Source of the DNA: Pseudomonas putida
Lineage (GTDB): Bacteria > Pseudomonadota > Gammaproteobacteria > Pseudomonadales > Pseudomonadaceae
Assembly: GCA_041879295.1 (NCBI GenBank)
Contig: CP047152.1
Coordinates: 3,291,501-3,355,500 of the forward strand
DNA length: 64,000 bases
Direction: 5' to 3'
Shown: piece by piece, positions 13,808 through 44,974 of the stretch
How the letters are laid out: each line of letters opens with the position of its first letter
Position numbering within the stretch: position 1 is the first letter of the stretch
Position numbers and translations under genes: made by a program
Notes under the pieces: model-generated
The model's database searches: none
What the model was told of the DNA's origin: nothing
What the model saw: the letters and a program-made list of their open reading frames with translations, nothing else

Positions 13808-15498
13808 TCAATCCACCACCTTGAATTGTTGCAAATGCTGGTAATCGGCGTGCAATTGTTCTGCCAGACGCTGCGCGCGCCCCAGGCGCACTGGCGCCAG
13901 CTCCATATCGACCAACAACGTGGCGCACGGCATCGGTTGCACGGCATTGCAGTGCTGCAGGCGACCGTCGGTGAACACCAGGCAACGCAAGGCCTCTTGC
14001 GGATGCGCTCGCTGCCGCGCCTGTAGCCAGTGCCGCGCCTGCTCCAGTGCGGCCAACAGCGGCGTGCCCCCACCTGCCCCCAAGGCCTGCAGCCAGGGTT
14101 GCAAGGCGGCGGATGCCTTCAGCCCGTGGCGCTGCCACTGTGGCGTGCGCCCGCTGGCAGTCAGCAGGGCCAGGCGGGCGCGCTGGCGATAGGCCTGGTC
14201 GAACAATGCCGCCAGCAGCCCTTTGGTCTGCGCCAACGCCTGATGACGCCGGGTTGAAGCCGAGGCGTCGACGATCACCAGCCACAACTCTGCAGGCCTG
14301 CCCTTGCGCTGCTGCCAGCACAGGTCCTCTCGCAGACGTGGCCGCCCTTTGAGCAAGGTCGGCAGCCAGGCCACCCGGCCAGCCGCCGCATGACGCACGG
14401 GGCCACGGCGGGTACCGTTCTGCTTGCCTTTGCCCGCTCTGGCATCCGCCCCTCTGGCTGGTGGCTGGGGGATGCTCAGGGCTTTTTTGCCCAGTTCGGC
14501 ACCTCGCGGCGGGCGCCGCTGGCCACCGGCTGTGCCGGCAATGCCCCCCAGTCGCCCTGCCCGCTCTGTTCGCCAGGGTTGTCGGCACTCTGATGACGGA
14601 GCTGCTGCTCAGGCGGCGGTGGCGCCGACGGCGGGTTGGCCTGAGGCGTCATACGGCGGCGATGGCGCAAGGCGAACTCGGCCACCGCCTCGACATCCAC
14701 TTCTTCGATAGCTGCAGCCCCACGCCACGCACAGTGGGCGCGCGCAGCGCGCAGCCACACCAGGTCGGCGCGCAGGCCGTCCACGCCGGCGGCGTAGCAG
14801 CGCTCGGTAATCCAGGCCAGCGCCTGATCATCCAGGGCAATGTCGGCCAAGGTCTGGCGCGCCGCCTGGCAGCGCTCGCGCAGTTGCGCCTGGGCCTGGG
14901 CCCAGTGTGCGCAGAACGCCTGAGGGTCACTGTCGAAGGCCAGACGGCGGCGAATGATCTGCTGCCGGGCCTCGGGCTCCGGCAAGCCCTCCAGCGCCAC
15001 GTTCAATCCGAAACGGTCGAGCAACTGCGGGCGCAGTTCGCCTTCTTCCGGGTTCATGGTGCCGATCAGTACAAAGCGGGCGCTGTGCCGGTGCGAGATA
15101 CCGTCACGCTCGACGCGGTTTGTGCCGCTGGCAGCCACGTCAAGCAACAGATCGACCAAGGTGTCGGGCAGCAGATTGACCTCATCGACATACAGCACAC
15201 CGCCGTCAGCCTGGGCCAGCACGCCCGGAGAAAACTGCGCCTTGCCCTGCCCTAGCGCGGCATCCAGGTCGAGGGTGCCGACCAACCGCTCCTCACTGGC
15301 GCCCAATGGCAAGGTGACGAACGGGCCTTCGCCAAGCAGGTCGGCCAGGCCACGGGCCAGGGTGCTCTTGGCCATGCCACGCGGCCCTTCGATCAGCACA
15401 CCACCGATCCTGGGGTCGATGGCGGTCAGGCACAGCGCCAGCTTGAGGTCGTCTGCACCGACCACGGCCGCCAGCGGAAATTGTACGGGTTCACTCAT
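13808..15498 (-). CDS. chlD: ChlD-like chelatase medium subunit made by -1 frameshift (AAA+ plus VWA)
   Basis: Predicted product of about 563 aa: residues 1-339 in the ATPase frame, then a -1 shift at A AAA AAG (14482-14488) into the frame that ends at 13808. The second part has a basic linker (RAGKGKQNGTRRG) and a von Willebrand A domain with a MIDAS motif DASAS (in LVIVDASASTRRHQ) and a later TDGR. AAA+, Pro-rich linker and VWA in that order is the architecture of ChlD/BchD. There is no stop codon in the -1 frame between 14480 and 13808. The only in-frame start near the VWA part is a GTG at 14398 without a good SD, which argues against independent initiation. Frameshift use itself is inferred. 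Confidence 0.72.
14442..14505 (-). promoter_or_regulatory. Programmed -1 ribosomal frameshift signal (dnaX-like)
   Basis: Reading the mRNA 5' to 3': an SD-like GAGGTG (14505-14500), an 11-nt spacer, the slippery heptamer A AAA AAG (14488-14482) in the zero frame GCA AAA AAG, a 6-nt spacer CCCTGA holding the zero-frame stop, then a stem-loop. The stem pairs GCATCC with GGATGC and CCC with GGG, with one bulged C (14475-14467 with 14451-14442) and a 15-nt loop. All three dnaX-type stimulators are present with near-ideal spacing. Confidence 0.82.
14476..15498 (-). CDS. chlI: ChlI-like AAA+ chelatase small subunit (zero-frame product)
   Basis: A 340-aa AAA+ protein. Walker A is GPRGMAKST (about 37-45), Walker B is GVLYVDEVNLLPD (about 100-112), and the sensor/Arg region is GTMNPEEGELRPQLLDRFGL (about 139-158). 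The last 60 residues are a Pro/Gln-rich tail (PPSAPPPPEQQ) of the kind that links the AAA+ and VWA domains in ChlD. That is odd for a free-standing ChlI and supports the frameshift fusion. Start ATG 15498 lies 1 nt after the cobN stop (15500), so translation is coupled. It forms the motor ring that drives metal insertion by CobN. Confidence 0.88.
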   Translation of the reverse strand: MSEPVQFPLAAVVGADDLKLALCLTAIDPRIGGVLIEGPRGMAKSTLARGLADLLGEGPFVTLPLGASEERLVGTLDLDAALGQGKAQFSPGVLAQADGGVLYVDEVNLLPDTLVDLLLDVAASGTNRVERDGISHRHSARFVLIGTMNPEEGELRPQLLDRFGLNVALEGLPEPEARQQIIRRRLAFDSDPQAFCAHWAQAQAQLRERCQAARQTLADIALDDQALAWITERCYAAGVDGLRADLVWLRAARAHCAWRGAAAIEEVDVEAVAEFALRHRRRMTPQANPPSAPPPPEQQLRHQSADNPGEQSGQGDWGALPAQPVASGARREVPNWAKKP

Positions 15499-15499
15499 T

Positions 15500-18400
15500 T
15501 CAAGCCTGTTCCTCGCCGTCGAGCAATTGTTCCTCAAGGGCTTCGCGGTAGTCGCCCGGCGCCTGCCACAAGCCGCGCTGCTGGGCCTCCAGCAGGCGCT
15601 CGGTGAGGTCGCGCAAGGCCTCGGGGTTGTGCTCGCGCATGAAATCGCGGGTCGCCGGGTCGAGCACGTAGGCATCGGCCAGCCCCTGGTAATGATGGTC
15701 GTCGATCAGGTGCGTGGTGGCGTCGAAGGCGAACAGGTTGTCGACTGTCGCTGCCATCTCGAAGGCACCCTTGTAGCCGTGACGCTTGACCCCGTCGATC
15801 CACTTGGGGTTGAGCGCACGGGCACGGATCACCCGGTTCAGCTCTTCCTTGAGGGTACGGATGCGCGGCCGGTCGGCCTGGCTGTGGTCGCCATGGTAGC
15901 TGGCCACCACCGCCCCGGACAGGGTTTCCGAGGCCGCCAGCATGCCGCCCTGGAACTGGTAGTAATCGTTGGAATCGAGCAGGTCGTGCTCGTGGTTGTC
16001 CTGGTTCTGCAGCACCGCCTGCACCTTGGCCAGGCGCTGGGCGAACTGGGCGCGGGCCGGGGTGCCGTCGTCGCTGCCACCGTAGGCATAGCCGCCGTGG
16101 TTGAGGTAGACCTCAGCCAGGTCGTCGCGACTGTTCCACAAGCGCCCATCGATGGCGTTCTGCACCCCGGCACCGTAAGCGCCAGGTTTGGCACCGAACA
16201 CCCGCCAGCCTGCCTGACGCGCGGCCTGCTCGGCATCCACGCCCTGAGCCTGCAGCGCTGCCCGTTCGCTGCGCACGCGGGCAGCCAAGGGGTTGAGGTC
16301 GTCAGGTTCGTCCAGCGCGGCCACTGCCTGCACGGCGGCGTCGAACAGGCGGATCAGGTTGCCGAAGGCATCACGGAAGAAGCCGGAAACGCGCAAGGTC
16401 ACATCCACCCGCGGGCGGTCGAGCAGGCTCAACGGCAAGATTTCGAAGTCGTCCACGCGCTGGCTGCCGGTAGCCCATACAGGCCGCACGCCCATCAGCG
16501 CCATGGCCTGCGCGATGTCGTCGCCGCCGGTGCGCATGGTCGCCGTGCCCCATACCGACAGGCCGAGCTGACGCAAGTGGTCGCCGTGGTCCTGCAAATG
16601 GCGTTCGAGGATCAGGCTGGCCGAGGCGAAGCCCAGGCGCCAGGCCGTGGTGGTGGGCAGGTTGCGCACGTCCACGGTATAGAAGTTGCGGCCGGTGGGC
16701 AGCACATCGAGGCGCCCTCGGCTTGGCGCACCACTGGGGCCGGCGGGCACGAAGCGCCCGGCCAGTGCCGCCAGTAGGCCATGCATTTCAGCCGTGCCGC
16801 AGGCGTCCAGGCTGGGTGCGACCGCCTCACACAGGGCCTGCACGACAGCGTGCACCGGTTGCCACTCACTCAGGTCGGGTAACTTTACTGTGCCCTCCAG
16901 TGCCTGCCCAATCACCTGCAGTGCCAACAGCTCAAGGCGCTCGCGGGTATCGCCACAGGTGCGCCAGGGTTCATTGCTCATGGCCAGCAGCTGTTCAGGG
17001 CGCATGCCCTGCCACGGCTGCCCAAGGTCGCAATCGAGCGGGTCCCAGCCCGGCACCAGTGCTTTGGCCAAAGCCCGCAGCAGGCTGGCATTGCCGCCAC
17101 GGCCGTCGCCACGCTCGACCCGCAACAATGCCAGCAGCGTATCCAGGCGCAGCCGCCCTTCAGGTGACTGACCAAACACGTGCAGGCCATCGCGAATTTG
17201 CGACTCCTTCAGGTCGCACAGGTAGGTATCCAGGCGCGGCAGCCAGAGCGCCGCATCGTCCAGTTGCCCTTCCAGTTGCAACTCACGGTCGATGTGGTTG
17301 GCCTTGACCAGCTCGAGGATGTCACGCTGCAACTCGCGGGCACGCCGAGGGTCGAGCAACTGCGCTTCGTAGAATTCGTCGGCCAGTTGTTCCAGGTGGC
17401 GCAGCGGGCCATAGGTTTCAGCACGGGTCAGCGGCGGCATCAGGTGGTCGATGATCACCGCCTGGGTACGGCGCTTGGCCTGGGCGCCCTCGCCCGGGTC
17501 GTTGACGATGAACGGGTAGATGTTCGGCAGCGGACCCAGCAGCGCGTCCGGCCAGCACTGCTCCGACAGCCCGACGCCTTTGCCGGGCAACCATTCGAGG
17601 TTGCCATGCTTGCCGACGTGGATCACCGCATCGGCGGCAAATGCGTGACGCAGCCAGAAGTGAAACGCCAGGTAGCCGTGCGGTGGCACCAGGTCAGGGT
17701 CGTGATACACCGCGCTAGGGTCCACCTGGTAGCCCCGCGCCGGCTGGATACCAACGAAGGTCAAGCCAAAGCGCAGGCCGGCAACCATCAACCGGCCGCT
17801 GCGGTACATCGGGTCCTGTTCGGGCGGCCCCCAGCGTTCCAGCACTGCCTGGCGGTTGGCCTGCGGCAGGCGCTCGAAGGCCACCTGGTAATCGGCCAGG
17901 CTCAGGCTCTGGGCACAGGGGCGCTGGTCGAGGTGGTCGAGGTCGTTGGTCACGCCACCGAGCAACTGGTGGATCAGTTGCGTACCGCTGCCCGGCAATT
18001 CGGCCAGCGGGTAGCCTTCGGCCTGCAGCGCCTTGAGGATGTTGAGTGCGGCGGCGGGCGTGTCCAGGCCGACACCATTACCAATGCGACCATCCCGGGT
18101 CGGGTAGTTGGCCAGCACCAGGGCTACACGCTTCTGGGCATTGGGCAGGCGGGCCAGCTCGACCCAGCGGCGGGCCAATTCGGCGACAAAGTCCATGCGC
18201 TCGGGGTGGGCGCGGTAGCAGACGACATCGGACTGACTGCGCTCGCTGCGCCAGGCCATGTCCTTGAAACTGACCGGGCGCGTGATGATGCGCCCGTCCA
18301 GCTCCGGCAATGCAATGTGCATGGCCAGGTCGCGCGCGCCCAGGCCCTGCTCGCTGGCTTCCCAGCCAGGCTGGTTGTCCTGCGCACAGATGGCCTGAAG

Positions 18401-19261
18401 CACCGGGATGTCGCGGCGGAACGGGCGCAGGTTGGGGCGCTCGGGGCTGGACAAGGCGAAACCGGTGGTATTGACCAGCACTTCGGCGCCGACCTCGTCC
18501 AGCCAGGCTTCGACCTGTTCCAGGCAGGCGCTTTCCTTGAGGCTGGCCACGGCGATCGGCAACGGGTTCAGGCCGGCAGCCTGCAGGCGCTGGCAGAACA
18601 CGTCGATGAAGGCGGTATTGGCCGCTTGCAGGTGCGAGCGGTAGAACAGTAACGGCGCCACCGGCTGTTCGGGGTGCCAGTGCGGGTACCAGTCCTCGAG
18701 TGTCGCGCTGCCGTTGGCCGGGTGATAGACCGCCGTGCGCGGCAAAGGCTGCGGTTCGTCCCAGGCATAGTCGCGGCCCAGCCACTGGCTGGCCAGGCAG
18801 TTGAACAGGTTGATGGCGTTGGCCTTGCCGCCCTGGCGCAGGTAATGCCAAAGCCGCTCGGCCTGCTCACCGCGGACGTTGCCCAGGCTGGTCAGCTCCG
18901 GGTCCGGGCGGTCGTCGCCCGGCACCAGAATCAGCTGCACGCCACGGGCGGCCAGCTCGACCAGTTGTTCGACGCCGTAGCGCCAGTAGCCAACGCCACC
19001 GTGCAGCGACACCAGGATGACCTTGGCGTGACGCAGCACCTGGTCGACATACAGGTCGACCGAGGCATGGTTCTGCACCTGCATCGGGTTGGCCAGGCGC
19101 AGGCTGGGAAAGTCTTCGGGCAATTGCTCGGCGGTGTCGGCGAGCAATGCCAGGTGTGAATCGCCGCTGCAGAGAATCACCAGCTCGGCGGGTGTCTGGC
19201 CGAGGTCGGCAATGCTGTCATCCGGTACGAAACCACCGGGCTGAGTCCGCAGCAGGTGCAT
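15500..19261 (-). CDS. cobN: Cobaltochelatase large subunit CobN
   Basis: A 1253-aa protein of normal CobN length. Recognisable segments include [15 protein letters not shown] near the N-terminus, [22 protein letters not shown] (about 370-395), [26 protein letters not shown] (about 530-560) with the metal/porphyrinoid-site histidines, and [16 protein letters not shown] near 910. It inserts Co(II) into hydrogenobyrinic acid a,c-diamide in aerobic cobalamin synthesis. Its ATG lies 3 nt after the cobW stop and its stop lies 1 nt before the chlI start, so cobW-cobN-chlI/D is one tightly coupled operon. Confidence 0.95.
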   Translation of the reverse strand: [1253 protein letters not shown]

Positions 19262-19264
19262 GGG

Positions 19265-20332
19265 TCAGGCGCCCAGCGCCTGGCGCAGGCGCGCCTCCAG
19301 CTGGGCAGCATCGAGGTCCTGGCCGATCAGCACCAGGCGGGTGATGCGCGGCTCGTCGGCGCGCCAGGCGCGGTCGAAGTGCTTGTCGAAACGGGTGCCC
19401 ACGCCTTGTACCAGCAGGCGCATCGGCTTGCCCGGGATGGCGGCGAAGCCTTTGGCGCGCAGGATACCGAACTCCACCACCAGCTGGGTCAGCGCATCGA
19501 GCAGCAGGCTTTCGTCGGCTTCAGGCAGGTCGATGGAGATGGAATCGAAAGCGTCGTGGTCATGATCGTCATGATCGTCGCCGTCGTGGTGGGAATCGTG
19601 GTGAGTTCGACGGCCATCGATATGTGACTCGGACTCGGCACCCACGCCCAGCAGCACGTCCAGTGGCAGCTTGCCGCTGCTGGCCTCGATCACTTTCACC
19701 GCCGGCGGCAGTTCTTCGGCCACCTCGGCACGCACCTTGGCCAGGCCTTCGGCGTCGATCAGGTCGGCCTTGTTCAACACCACCAGGTCGGCGCTGGCCA
19801 GCTGGTCAGCGAACAGCTCGTGCAGGGGCGATTCATGGTCCAGGTTAGGGTCGAGCTTGCGCTGGGCATCGACCTGGTCCGGGTAGGCGGCGAAGGTGCC
19901 AGCGGCCACGGCCGGGCTGTCGACCACGGTGATGACCGCATCGACGGTGCAGGCATTGCGGATTTCCGGCCACTGGAACGCTTGTACCAATGGTTTGGGC
20001 AGGGCCAGGCCGCTGGTTTCGATGAGAATGTGGTCGAGGTCGCCACGGCGTGCCACCAGCTCGCGCATCACCGGGAAGAATTCTTCCTGCACGGTGCAGC
20101 ACAGGCAACCGTTGGCCAGTTCGTAGACGCGGCCGCTGGCTTCTTCCTCGGTGCACCCGATGCTGCACTGCTTGAGGATTTCGCCATCGATGCCCAGTTC
20201 GCCGAACTCGTTGACGATGACCGCAATGCGGCGGCCCTGGGCGTTGTCGAGCATGTGGCGCAGCAAGGTGGTCTTGCCCGAGCCGAGGAAGCCGGTGACG
20301 ATGGTGACGGGGAGCTTGGCCAGTGTTTTCAT
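19265..20332 (-). CDS. cobW: CobW, COG0523-family G3E GTPase/metallochaperone
   Basis: A 355-aa G3E GTPase. It shows Walker A GFLGSGKTTLL, the metal-binding GCLCC motif (in ANGCLCCTV, about 78-86), the Walker B-like ETSGLALP and the G4 motif NKADL. A His/Asp-rich loop (THHDSHHDGDDHDDHDHD, about 258-275) should bind metal. ATG 20332 is preferred over upstream starts because it begins directly with the GTPase fold (MKTLAKLPVTIVTGF). It leads an operon behind a B12 riboswitch, which favours a role in cobalt delivery to CobN rather than zinc homeostasis. Confidence 0.93.
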   Translation of the reverse strand: MKTLAKLPVTIVTGFLGSGKTTLLRHMLDNAQGRRIAVIVNEFGELGIDGEILKQCSIGCTEEEASGRVYELANGCLCCTVQEEFFPVMRELVARRGDLDHILIETSGLALPKPLVQAFQWPEIRNACTVDAVITVVDSPAVAAGTFAAYPDQVDAQRKLDPNLDHESPLHELFADQLASADLVVLNKADLIDAEGLAKVRAEVAEELPPAVKVIEASSGKLPLDVLLGVGAESESHIDGRRTHHDSHHDGDDHDDHDHDAFDSISIDLPEADESLLLDALTQLVVEFGILRAKGFAAIPGKPMRLLVQGVGTRFDKHFDRAWRADEPRITRLVLIGQDLDAAQLEARLRQALGA

Positions 20333-20445
20333 GTCGCATTGCCCTTGGCAGTGTGGCGCGGGCATGCAGGACGACAGCCGCGGGCCAGACCGGCCGGGCT
20401 TGTTCGCCACCGGATCACCCCGCCCGGTTGAAAGTCGAAAACGTG

Positions 20446-20645
20446 ACGAGGCAGGTCTCCTGGCTTGCACCGTTCCATGCCCCCGTTCAGTTGAACGGCA
20501 GGCTGGCGGGATGACGCCTTCCCGCGCGCTGGCGCAGTGGCTGTGTCGATCCGTTGTCGGTGCTTACAGTTGCGGGGGCAGCCGCGGCTTGTACCGCGTT
20601 CCCGTCTTAGCTCCGGCCATGCCGAAGAACCTCGAAGTGGGCAAG
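20446..20645 (-). ncRNA. Cobalamin (B12, AdoCbl-type) riboswitch
   Basis: On the minus strand the region contains the conserved core GCTGCCCCCGCAACTGTAAGC (about 20563-20583), the flanking GGGAAC, and the B12 box AAGCCAGGAGACCTGCC (20466-20450). These are the hallmark elements of the cobalamin riboswitch. It lies about 115 nt upstream of cobW and should repress cobW-cobN-chlI/D when adenosylcobalamin is plentiful. Confidence 0.95.
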
Positions 20646-20749
20646 GCTACGCAGTGGCTGGCGGGTGGTCAACCATTGCTGCCGGCTGGTCGACCATAAG
20701 GGCAGCAACTGCGCTACAGTGGCACTTTTTCAACGGACAAGGACGCCCC

Positions 20750-44103: not shown

Positions 44104-44460
44104 GTACAACAACAAAAAAAACGCGATACCCAATAAAAACAACAGGTAACGGCTCTGACATAACAAGAACAACACGGCAGAGGCGTAGCAAGCAGATTTT
44201 TTTGGAGTCGACACGCTTTTCAGGGGTTCGCCCCGCGGTCTGGCACAGAACAATAAAACTACCTCAAGGTAGCGGCAGCCAGGTTCGGATCAGCGATGAT
44301 GACAGCAGGTCAGCGCTCAAAAAAATACGTTTGCTCTTGACCCCGCATGGGGGTCGCCCGCAGCACCAGGACAAGCCGACAAAAACAACAATAGGCCGGT
44401 CCCAATAATAAAAAAAGAGCAGGCAACAACGCTTTGAGGGGAGCTTCGGCTCCCCTCAGT
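44104..44460 (+). ncRNA. crcY: CrcY small RNA (Crc/Hfq decoy)
   Basis: The region starts at the -24/-12 promoter and ends at a hairpin (44435-44458), about 357 nt. It carries six exact AAYAANAA catabolite-activity motifs, at 44108, 44132, 44162, 44249, 44384 and 44404, spread along an otherwise noncoding sequence. CrcY lies between mvaB and the mgtC-like gene in P. putida, as here. It titrates Hfq/Crc and so relieves catabolite repression when CbrAB is active. Confidence 0.88.
44435..44458 (+). terminator. crcY 3' hairpin with UUCG tetraloop
   Basis: TGAGGGGAGC, loop TTCG, GCTCCCCTCA: a very stable 10-bp stem. No T-tract follows. The stem overlaps the stop codon of the convergent mgtC-like gene (44456-44458). 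Confidence 0.75.
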
Positions 44461-44974
44461 GCTTCCTGCCCTCTTCCTCCTTCTGCTTCTCCTCATCCTT
44501 TCCTTCGACCTTCTCCACCAGCAACGGCATCGTGCCCAGTACCAGCAGGGCCAGTACCGTGCTGATCAGCGCCGTGGCTTCGCGTCCCATGCCAGCCGCC
44601 ATACCGATGGCAGCCGTCATCCATAGCCCGGCAGCGGTCGTCAGCCCCTTCACATGGCTGGTGTTCTGGCCGTTACCCTTCAGAATGGTACCCGCACCGA
44701 GAAACCCGATACCGGCAACGATGCCTTGGATCACCCGGCTTAGCGCCTGGTCATCGGCCCCCGCCATGCTGGGTGACAGCATGAACAGGGCAGCGCCCAG
44801 CGAGACCAGCATGTGGGTACGCACCCCGGCAGACTTGCCCCTGTGTTCACGCTCGAAGCCCAGTATTGCGCCAAGCACAGCAGCCATCAGCAAGCGCACA
44901 AGGATTTGCGTGACCTCGCGCTCATCGGTGACATCGGCGAATTCGGCCTGGATTGCTTGCCAGATGACATCCAT
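44456..44974 (-). CDS. MgtC/SapB-family membrane protein
   Basis: A 172-aa membrane protein with about five helices. It has the family core LLMAAVLGAILGFEREHRGKSAGVRTHMLVSLGAALFML and GIGFLGAGTIL...VKGLTTAAGLWMTAAIGMAAG. ATG 44974 with GGGGAG upstream is chosen over the start at 44998. The C-terminal tail is highly charged (EGKDEEKQKEEEGRKH). MgtC proteins affect Mg2+ limitation survival and ATP synthase; this one is a short generic member. Confidence 0.88.
   Translation of the reverse strand: MDVIWQAIQAEFADVTDEREVTQILVRLLMAAVLGAILGFEREHRGKSAGVRTHMLVSLGAALFMLSPSMAGADDQALSRVIQGIVAGIGFLGAGTILKGNGQNTSHVKGLTTAAGLWMTAAIGMAAGMGREATALISTVLALLVLGTMPLLVEKVEGKDEEKQKEEEGRKH

Follow-up and report, generated by a model that had tools for sequence, protein, structure and literature searches.

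The locus described here lies on the minus strand of the window, the whole 64,000-nucleotide stretch of P. putida contig CP047152.1 that was analysed, and all of its features are given on that strand. A cobalamin riboswitch aptamer (20433..20649; Rfam RF00174, 100.8 bits against a cut-off of 31.5) precedes the cobW-cobN-chl genes, in agreement with the coupling to a B12 riboswitch proposed in an initial annotation of this DNA. It is followed by cobW (19265..20332; PF02492 at 199.8 bits and PF07683 at 66.2 bits, both above cut-off), the start of which was set at an internal ATG of the listed open reading frame 19265-20470, and by cobN (15500..19261), which encodes the large subunit of cobaltochelatase, 1253 aa in length (TIGR02257 at 1727 bits, cut-off 822; PF02514). 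The AAA+ frame of the chelatase gene (14476..15498) begins 1 nt past the cobN stop and runs from ATG 15498 to TGA 14478-14476; its product, a ChlI-like AAA+ subunit of 340 aa, matches the Pfam families AAA_5, AAA_lid_2 and Mg_chelatase above cut-off. Elsewhere in the window, on the plus strand, lies a match to the small RNA CrcZ, a known Pseudomonas family (44106-44490; Rfam RF01675, 325 bits).

The 3' end of the AAA+ frame reads GAG GTG CCG AAC TGG GCA AAA AAG CCC TGA and carries the elements of a dnaX-type cassette. The Shine-Dalgarno-like GAGGTG (14500..14505), a putative stimulator, has its last base 11 nt 5' of the slippery heptamer A_AAA_AAG (14482..14488), which contains the in-frame Lys codons AAA AAG. 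The zero-frame stop TGA (14476..14478) stands one codon past the heptamer, inside the 6-nt spacer CCCTGA (14481-14476) that separates the heptamer from a hairpin (14442..14475; arms 14475-14467 and 14451-14442, one bulge). After a -1 slip, the reading would continue as GCC CTG AGC ATC and stay open for 224 codons, up to a stop at 13808. This -1 frame (13808..14482) encodes a linker and a VWA (MIDAS) domain, 224 aa in all, and the joined product is predicted to comprise 339 residues up to the slip site plus 224. An AAA+ frame is thus followed at this locus by a VWA frame in -1. The positions of both frames, the heptamer, GAGGTG and the spacer, together with the length of the -1 frame, were all re-derived and agree with the initial annotation. 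The stem, described there as a 9-bp stem-loop, has nine canonical pairs, but these are arranged as 6+3 with one bulged base and are not continuous.

Each half of the predicted product was compared with known chelatase subunits. The AAA half reaches 416 bits against TIGR02442 and 329 bits against TIGR02030, both below their cut-offs, and matches the ChlI structure 8osf (PDB) with an E value of 4.8e-80. The VWA half matches VWA_2 (PF13519) above cut-off and the BchD structure 2x31 (PDB) at E 2.1e-16. In the in-frame ChlD-like cobaltochelatase proteins of TIGR02442, the AAA half forms the N-terminal part and the VWA half the C-terminal part; unlike these, the P. putida gene is divided by one frame, and neither half alone reaches the TIGR02442 cut-off of 779 bits (the VWA half scores 65 bits). 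Residues D72, S74 and S76 of the VWA half are invariant among 18 diverse members, and we take them to be the DxSxS of the VWA metal site. In an AlphaFold2 model of the VWA half, residues 1-33 fall below a pLDDT of 50 and the VWA fold (mean pLDDT 79.2) begins only after them, so that the frame junction looks as if it were placed in a flexible linker. A Foldseek search with this model returned general VWA domains, with no chelatase among the 50 matches listed.

Conservation of the shift site

The comparison was based on 266 locus rows, of which 174 come from the genus and 92 from the genus and the family. The genus search matched 279 of 298 genomes and scored at most nine first-look candidates in each, so that the 19 unmatched genomes are not proven to be without the gene. 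The genus loci consist of a first 30, a further 80 taken best scores first, and 65 named loci minus L157, the contig of which begins before the AAA part; 20 further genus genomes, mostly weak scorers, were also inspected. In the family, 70 of 84 matching genomes were read. Two genomes (G174 and G076) were skipped as truncated by the contig end, L001-L004 were excluded as other VWA genes or a duplicate from the P. putida genome itself, and L180-L187 were not used. The 266 rows include repeats of single genomes and overlaps between named and unnamed loci; the 260 rows in which the VWA frame lies in -1 were reduced by shared 14-mers to 228 non-redundant loci, and the removal of L227 from the tree and covariation sets leaves 227. 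The six rows that depart from the -1 arrangement stand outside every codon and stem count. The loci share descent and the counts are therefore not independent trials; for this reason the reference in the codon comparison is the remaining columns of these genes, which have the tree in common.

All 260 rows in -1 carry AAAAAAG as an A-rich shift site at the junction. A relative that keeps both frames but has lost the heptamer, which would speak against the frameshift reading, was looked for, and no locus clean in both frames and lacking the heptamer was seen among the 266 rows. The heptamer is in phase as AAA AAG in 227 of the 228 non-redundant loci, the exception being L227, where the run is A7G and out of phase; a stop follows 3 nt past the heptamer in 226 of the 228. 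The preceding codon ends in A in every one of these loci (228/228), mainly as CCA (122) or GCA (88), while the background usage in the same genes is 31.7% for Lys AAA, 12% for Pro CCA and 9.3% for Ala GCA. Codon invariance was assessed over columns of the AAA frame in which the amino acid is conserved to at least 95% and degenerate in the code. Over 227 loci, only two of 172 such columns, both of them heptamer codons (AAA and AAG), are codon-invariant; within the P. putida clade (80 loci) the count is three of 218, the third being the Glu GAG inside GAGGTG. Five loci with extra bases between the heptamer and the upstream element (L084, L086, L091, L104 and L108) still have the heptamer.

The six departing rows correspond to five genes. 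Two, L032 and L118, have the VWA frame in +1 and the heptamer intact; the frame changes within VWA in the former, and the latter contains an N gap. The remaining four (L109, L271, L273 and L277, with L273 and L277 representing one gene) were computed to be in the same frame. In L109 the A run is one short and there is a single open frame, but the linker is in another frame; in L271 the heptamer is changed by substitution and the frame changes in AAA and VWA both; in L273/L277 the heptamer is likewise changed by substitution and the VWA frame is broken. The short A run of L273 was considered as a homopolymer error, a reading rejected on the substitution in its sequence. The cobN gene is broken in the genomes of L032, L109 and L273 (G245, G034 and G052) and intact in that of L271 (G080, 86% complete). 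The five genes may be decayed or badly assembled, and those of L271 and L273 are possibly in decay.

These plainly disrupted loci, together with the in-frame AAA-VWA genes found in relatives outside the family, are what could be cited for a pseudogene, or a sequencing error, splitting a normal in-frame chlD. An identical -1 step at AAAAAAG in 260 of 266 rows and the invariance of D72, S74 and S76 argue so strongly the other way that we give this explanation almost no weight. Possible fusions, suggested by family open frames 540-565 aa long, were rejected, as the seven that were read (L217-L223) have the -1 arrangement with the heptamer intact. Some Pseudomonadaceae carry a divergent form of the gene (L225-L229 and L274-L276), in which VWA is 31-37% identical to that of the window and the -1 A-run site is kept; replacement or transfer is one possible reading of this form.

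The downstream hairpin

The fold energy of the window stem is no better than that of shuffled sequences (z of 0.03 over 92 nt and -0.64 over 52 nt), and the case for the stem is therefore a comparative one. It was examined in an alignment derived from the proteins and unfitted to the stem, on a tree built from the remainder of the gene. Over 11 pairs and 227 loci, canonical pairing is seen in 84.7% of the cells; sliding the 3' partner by 1 to 6 columns lowers this to 31-58%. Compensatory double changes occur on 26 branches, against 2-12 in the slid controls. The clearest pair links an Ile wobble base with the first position of an Asp/Asn codon, and is canonical in 224 of the 227 loci with seven double changes. 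The outer part contains a run of six pairs, each canonical in 206 to 224 loci; a twelfth pair, outermost and not counted among the 11, is so in only 80 of 227. Changes that break a pair number 78, within the 44-97 of the slid controls, and fall mostly in the inner part. The covariation indicates that an RNA structure is conserved downstream of the shift site, as in other frameshifted chelatase genes, with a putative stimulatory role. The triplex suggested by Atkins (2016) was also considered, by way of the purine/pyrimidine asymmetry of the stem, and set aside: 60-64% of the paired 5'-arm bases are pyrimidines, and an all-pyrimidine inner 5' arm is found in only 9% and 2% of the two groups of loci.

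The retention of the heptamer and the covariation of the stem support the frameshift interpretation of the initial annotation, and on this comparative evidence programmed -1 frameshifting at the chelatase gene is very likely. They also bear on an alternative, namely that the locus holds two genes and that VWA translation starts alone at GTG 14398 or GTG 14374, coupled to termination of the AAA frame, with no frameshift. The initial annotation had seen no credible start for the VWA frame; three candidates do exist in the -1 frame of the window (GTG 14398, GTG 14374 and TTG 14356), the best-scoring of which, GTG 14374, has a modest anti-Shine-Dalgarno score of -5.0. The claim nevertheless stands in substance, as in 42 of the 227 loci neither ATG nor GTG nor TTG occurs ahead of the VWA core, and in 166 of the 227 ATG is absent. 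No start codon is common to all loci, and even the commonest start column 3' of the heptamer is used by only 70 of 227. A separate start would moreover leave the codon-invariant heptamer and the covarying stem unexplained, and we consider this two-gene explanation to be very unlikely.

The Shine-Dalgarno element

The upstream element has a different distribution. All 80 loci of the P. putida clade contain GAGGT, which only 3 of the 148 loci outside it share; for any of four Shine-Dalgarno core tetramers located from -22 to -6, the counts are 80 of 80 and 14 of 148, respectively. The mean anti-Shine-Dalgarno energy of the stretch from -20 to -9 is -7.1 kcal/mol in the clade and -1.7 kcal/mol in the others, with at least one locus outside the clade reaching -10.3 kcal/mol. 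Conservation across Pseudomonas, put forward in the initial annotation as a check on all three elements of the cassette, is therefore seen for the heptamer and, as covariation, for the stem, but the Shine-Dalgarno element belongs to the P. putida clade. The spacing of 11 nt in the window falls inside the range of 9-14 nt given for such elements (Atkins, 2016, PMC5009743). The mean stem energy is -18.9 kcal/mol in the clade and -24.5 kcal/mol in the others. A trade-off between Shine-Dalgarno element and hairpin was considered, and is unsupported beyond this one difference: the difference in stem energy between clades acts as a single event, and the correlation of contrasts is -0.05.

We favour, with some reserve, a history in which an older cassette of heptamer and hairpin acquired the Shine-Dalgarno element at the origin of the P. 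putida clade or close to it, and the element was then fixed, most sister groups using heptamer and hairpin. If this is true, the boundary of the clade constitutes a natural experiment in the gain of a stimulator and in selection on the subunit ratio. Loci on its two sides form matched natural cassettes that have or lack the stimulator and could serve to measure its contribution.

The distribution of these elements is also relevant to transcriptional slippage, in which RNA polymerase would add or drop an A on the A run and so produce mRNAs in both frames. An A run is indeed present in every -1 locus, and relatives outside the family have runs of A7 and A10 before G. Polymerase slippage usually needs runs of 8-9 or more. 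With exactly six A followed by G in 224 of the 228 non-redundant loci, the run is short for such a process, and the conserved hairpin 3' of the site, together with the Shine-Dalgarno element 5' of it, points to the ribosome; slippage by the polymerase accordingly seems most improbable.

Cobaltochelatase role and in-frame relatives

CobN adjoins the chelatase gene and co-occurs with it. Of 39 genus genomes tested, all 20 that carry the gene have a CobN above cut-off, as do 2 of the 19 in which the gene was not matched; in both of these, cobN lies at a contig end. A distant CobN-like protein below cut-off was seen in six of those 19 (G060, G082, G180, G185, G242 and G260), with open frames of 1408-1491 aa; these six have no full cobN and no match to the chelatase gene. 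CobT above cut-off was found in 0 of 99 genus genomes; nine match below it, seven of these at 234-297 bits (G013, G015, G038, G041, G042, G054 and G060). G041 and G042 show neither CobN nor the frameshifted gene. In the P. putida genome itself, a search for CobS and CobT able to fill the role gave at best 19.5 bits for CobT (cut-off 759) and 42.1 bits for CobS (cut-off 559); the two weak matches adjoin one another on contig C2, at about 219094-220421. Mutation of cobN in P. aeruginosa makes aerobic B12 synthesis defective (PMC5962746). Given the co-occurrence of CobN, the absence of CobT above cut-off and this mutant phenotype, the role of the gene is likely that of a cobaltochelatase of aerobic B12 synthesis.

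Relatives of the gene were also sought in a draw of 321 gammaproteobacterial genomes, with at most nine candidates scored in each, and 20 genomes matched. The 19 matches other than that of P. putida comprise four in -1 with an A run, 12 in frame, one in +1, in which the VWA match is in two pieces, and two without an AAA match. Five of the 12 in-frame genes are only 25-34% identical in AAA. The other seven (L282, L284-L287, L290 and L291), with an AAA identity of at least 48%, come from genomes outside the Pseudomonadaceae, each of which has a PF02514 protein that may be CobN or BchH. Their linkers contain no slippery heptamer in frame, with one A5 run, in L291. A separate ChlI had been expected beside these in-frame genes. 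No second AAA homologue was found in the seven genomes at E 1e-30, which counts against a simple two-subunit story; the AAA-only subunit may therefore be dispensable or replaced there.

It can thus be proposed that the frameshift is real while the AAA-only protein is a by-product, only the AAA-VWA protein working with CobN. The seven genomes just described are consistent with this proposition, which overlaps with, and does not exclude, our preferred reading, in which both products take part. However, a single indel would be enough to fuse the two frames, and the 266 Pseudomonadaceae rows include no fusion in clean surroundings; this speaks for selection on both products or on their ratio. A by-product role for the AAA-only protein consequently appears unlikely. 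The need for both products is nonetheless less secure than the shift itself, given the in-frame relatives in which no further close AAA homologue was found.

Discussion

We propose with high confidence, on the comparative evidence, that the gene is an fs-chlD gene, which would yield a ChlI-like AAA+ protein by termination at TGA and a ChlD-like protein of AAA-linker-VWA order by a -1 slip, the two forming a cobaltochelatase with CobN. Some ribosomes would terminate at TGA 14478 and release the AAA+ protein of 340 aa, while others would slip by -1 on A_AAA_AAG and produce the longer protein of 339 + 224 residues. The slip would be aided by the downstream hairpin and, in the P. putida clade, also by pairing of GAGGTG with 16S rRNA 11 nt upstream. 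Both products would then combine with CobN into the cobaltochelatase of aerobic B12 synthesis, under the control of the B12 riboswitch. The cassette, its conservation, the covariation, the linkage with CobN and the absence of CobS and CobT above cut-off are all read from the sequences; we infer slipping in P. putida, its rate, the stability of and need for both products, and the metal. If the locus is read as two genes, the medium subunit of the chelatase goes unnoticed, and it is very probable that Pseudomonas relies on ribosomal frameshifting for its aerobic synthesis of B12. As the Pseudomonadaceae have kept the shift site and in-frame genes occur elsewhere, the need for an AAA-only subunit can be tested directly.

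The frameshifted chelatase gene of Pseudomonas is already known, since three earlier studies cover Pseudomonas or fs-chlD (PMC3711429; PMC5009743; PMC9227772). The initial annotation was right, and even understated, in describing the principle as published, Pseudomonas itself having been named in 2013 and 2016. The magnesium-chelatase cluster of Antonov (2013, PMC3711429) comprises 23 fs-genes with -1 shifts, Pseudomonas among them, and three of its cassettes, with A runs of 11, 9 and 7, gave 63, 40 and 10% shifting in E. coli. Downstream structures have been described for fs-chlD genes, which were also placed with B12 synthesis (Kuznetsov, Milenkin and Antonov, 2022, PMC9227772). The P. putida locus has the same gene order, frames, -1 direction and A-rich shift site as the fs-chlD genes of these two studies, but differs from the tested cassettes in having six A plus G and a Shine-Dalgarno element. 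For Pseudomonas, Atkins (2016, PMC5009743) reported purifying selection on A_AAA_AAR and, in P. protegens, a stem-loop that is like the stems in the present loci. The section on Pseudomonas in that work has no Shine-Dalgarno element and describes the stem sequence as not strongly conserved, with a triplex suggested, whereas in the present loci the stem covaries. A literature search, with Antonov 2020 and supplementary files lying outside it, returned no description of a Shine-Dalgarno element for an fs-chlD gene, and within that scope its apparent restriction to the P. putida clade is a detail that we did not find in print.

The -1 frameshift cassette of dnaX in E. coli and its relatives is also among the closest known systems. 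In E. coli dnaX, the shift yields the shorter product. In the P. putida chelatase gene, the shift would give the longer product, opposite to dnaX, and the Shine-Dalgarno element is mostly absent outside the P. putida clade. The two cassettes have in common the A6G run, an upstream Shine-Dalgarno-like stimulator, putative in P. putida, and a downstream hairpin (Antonov, 2013, PMC3711429).
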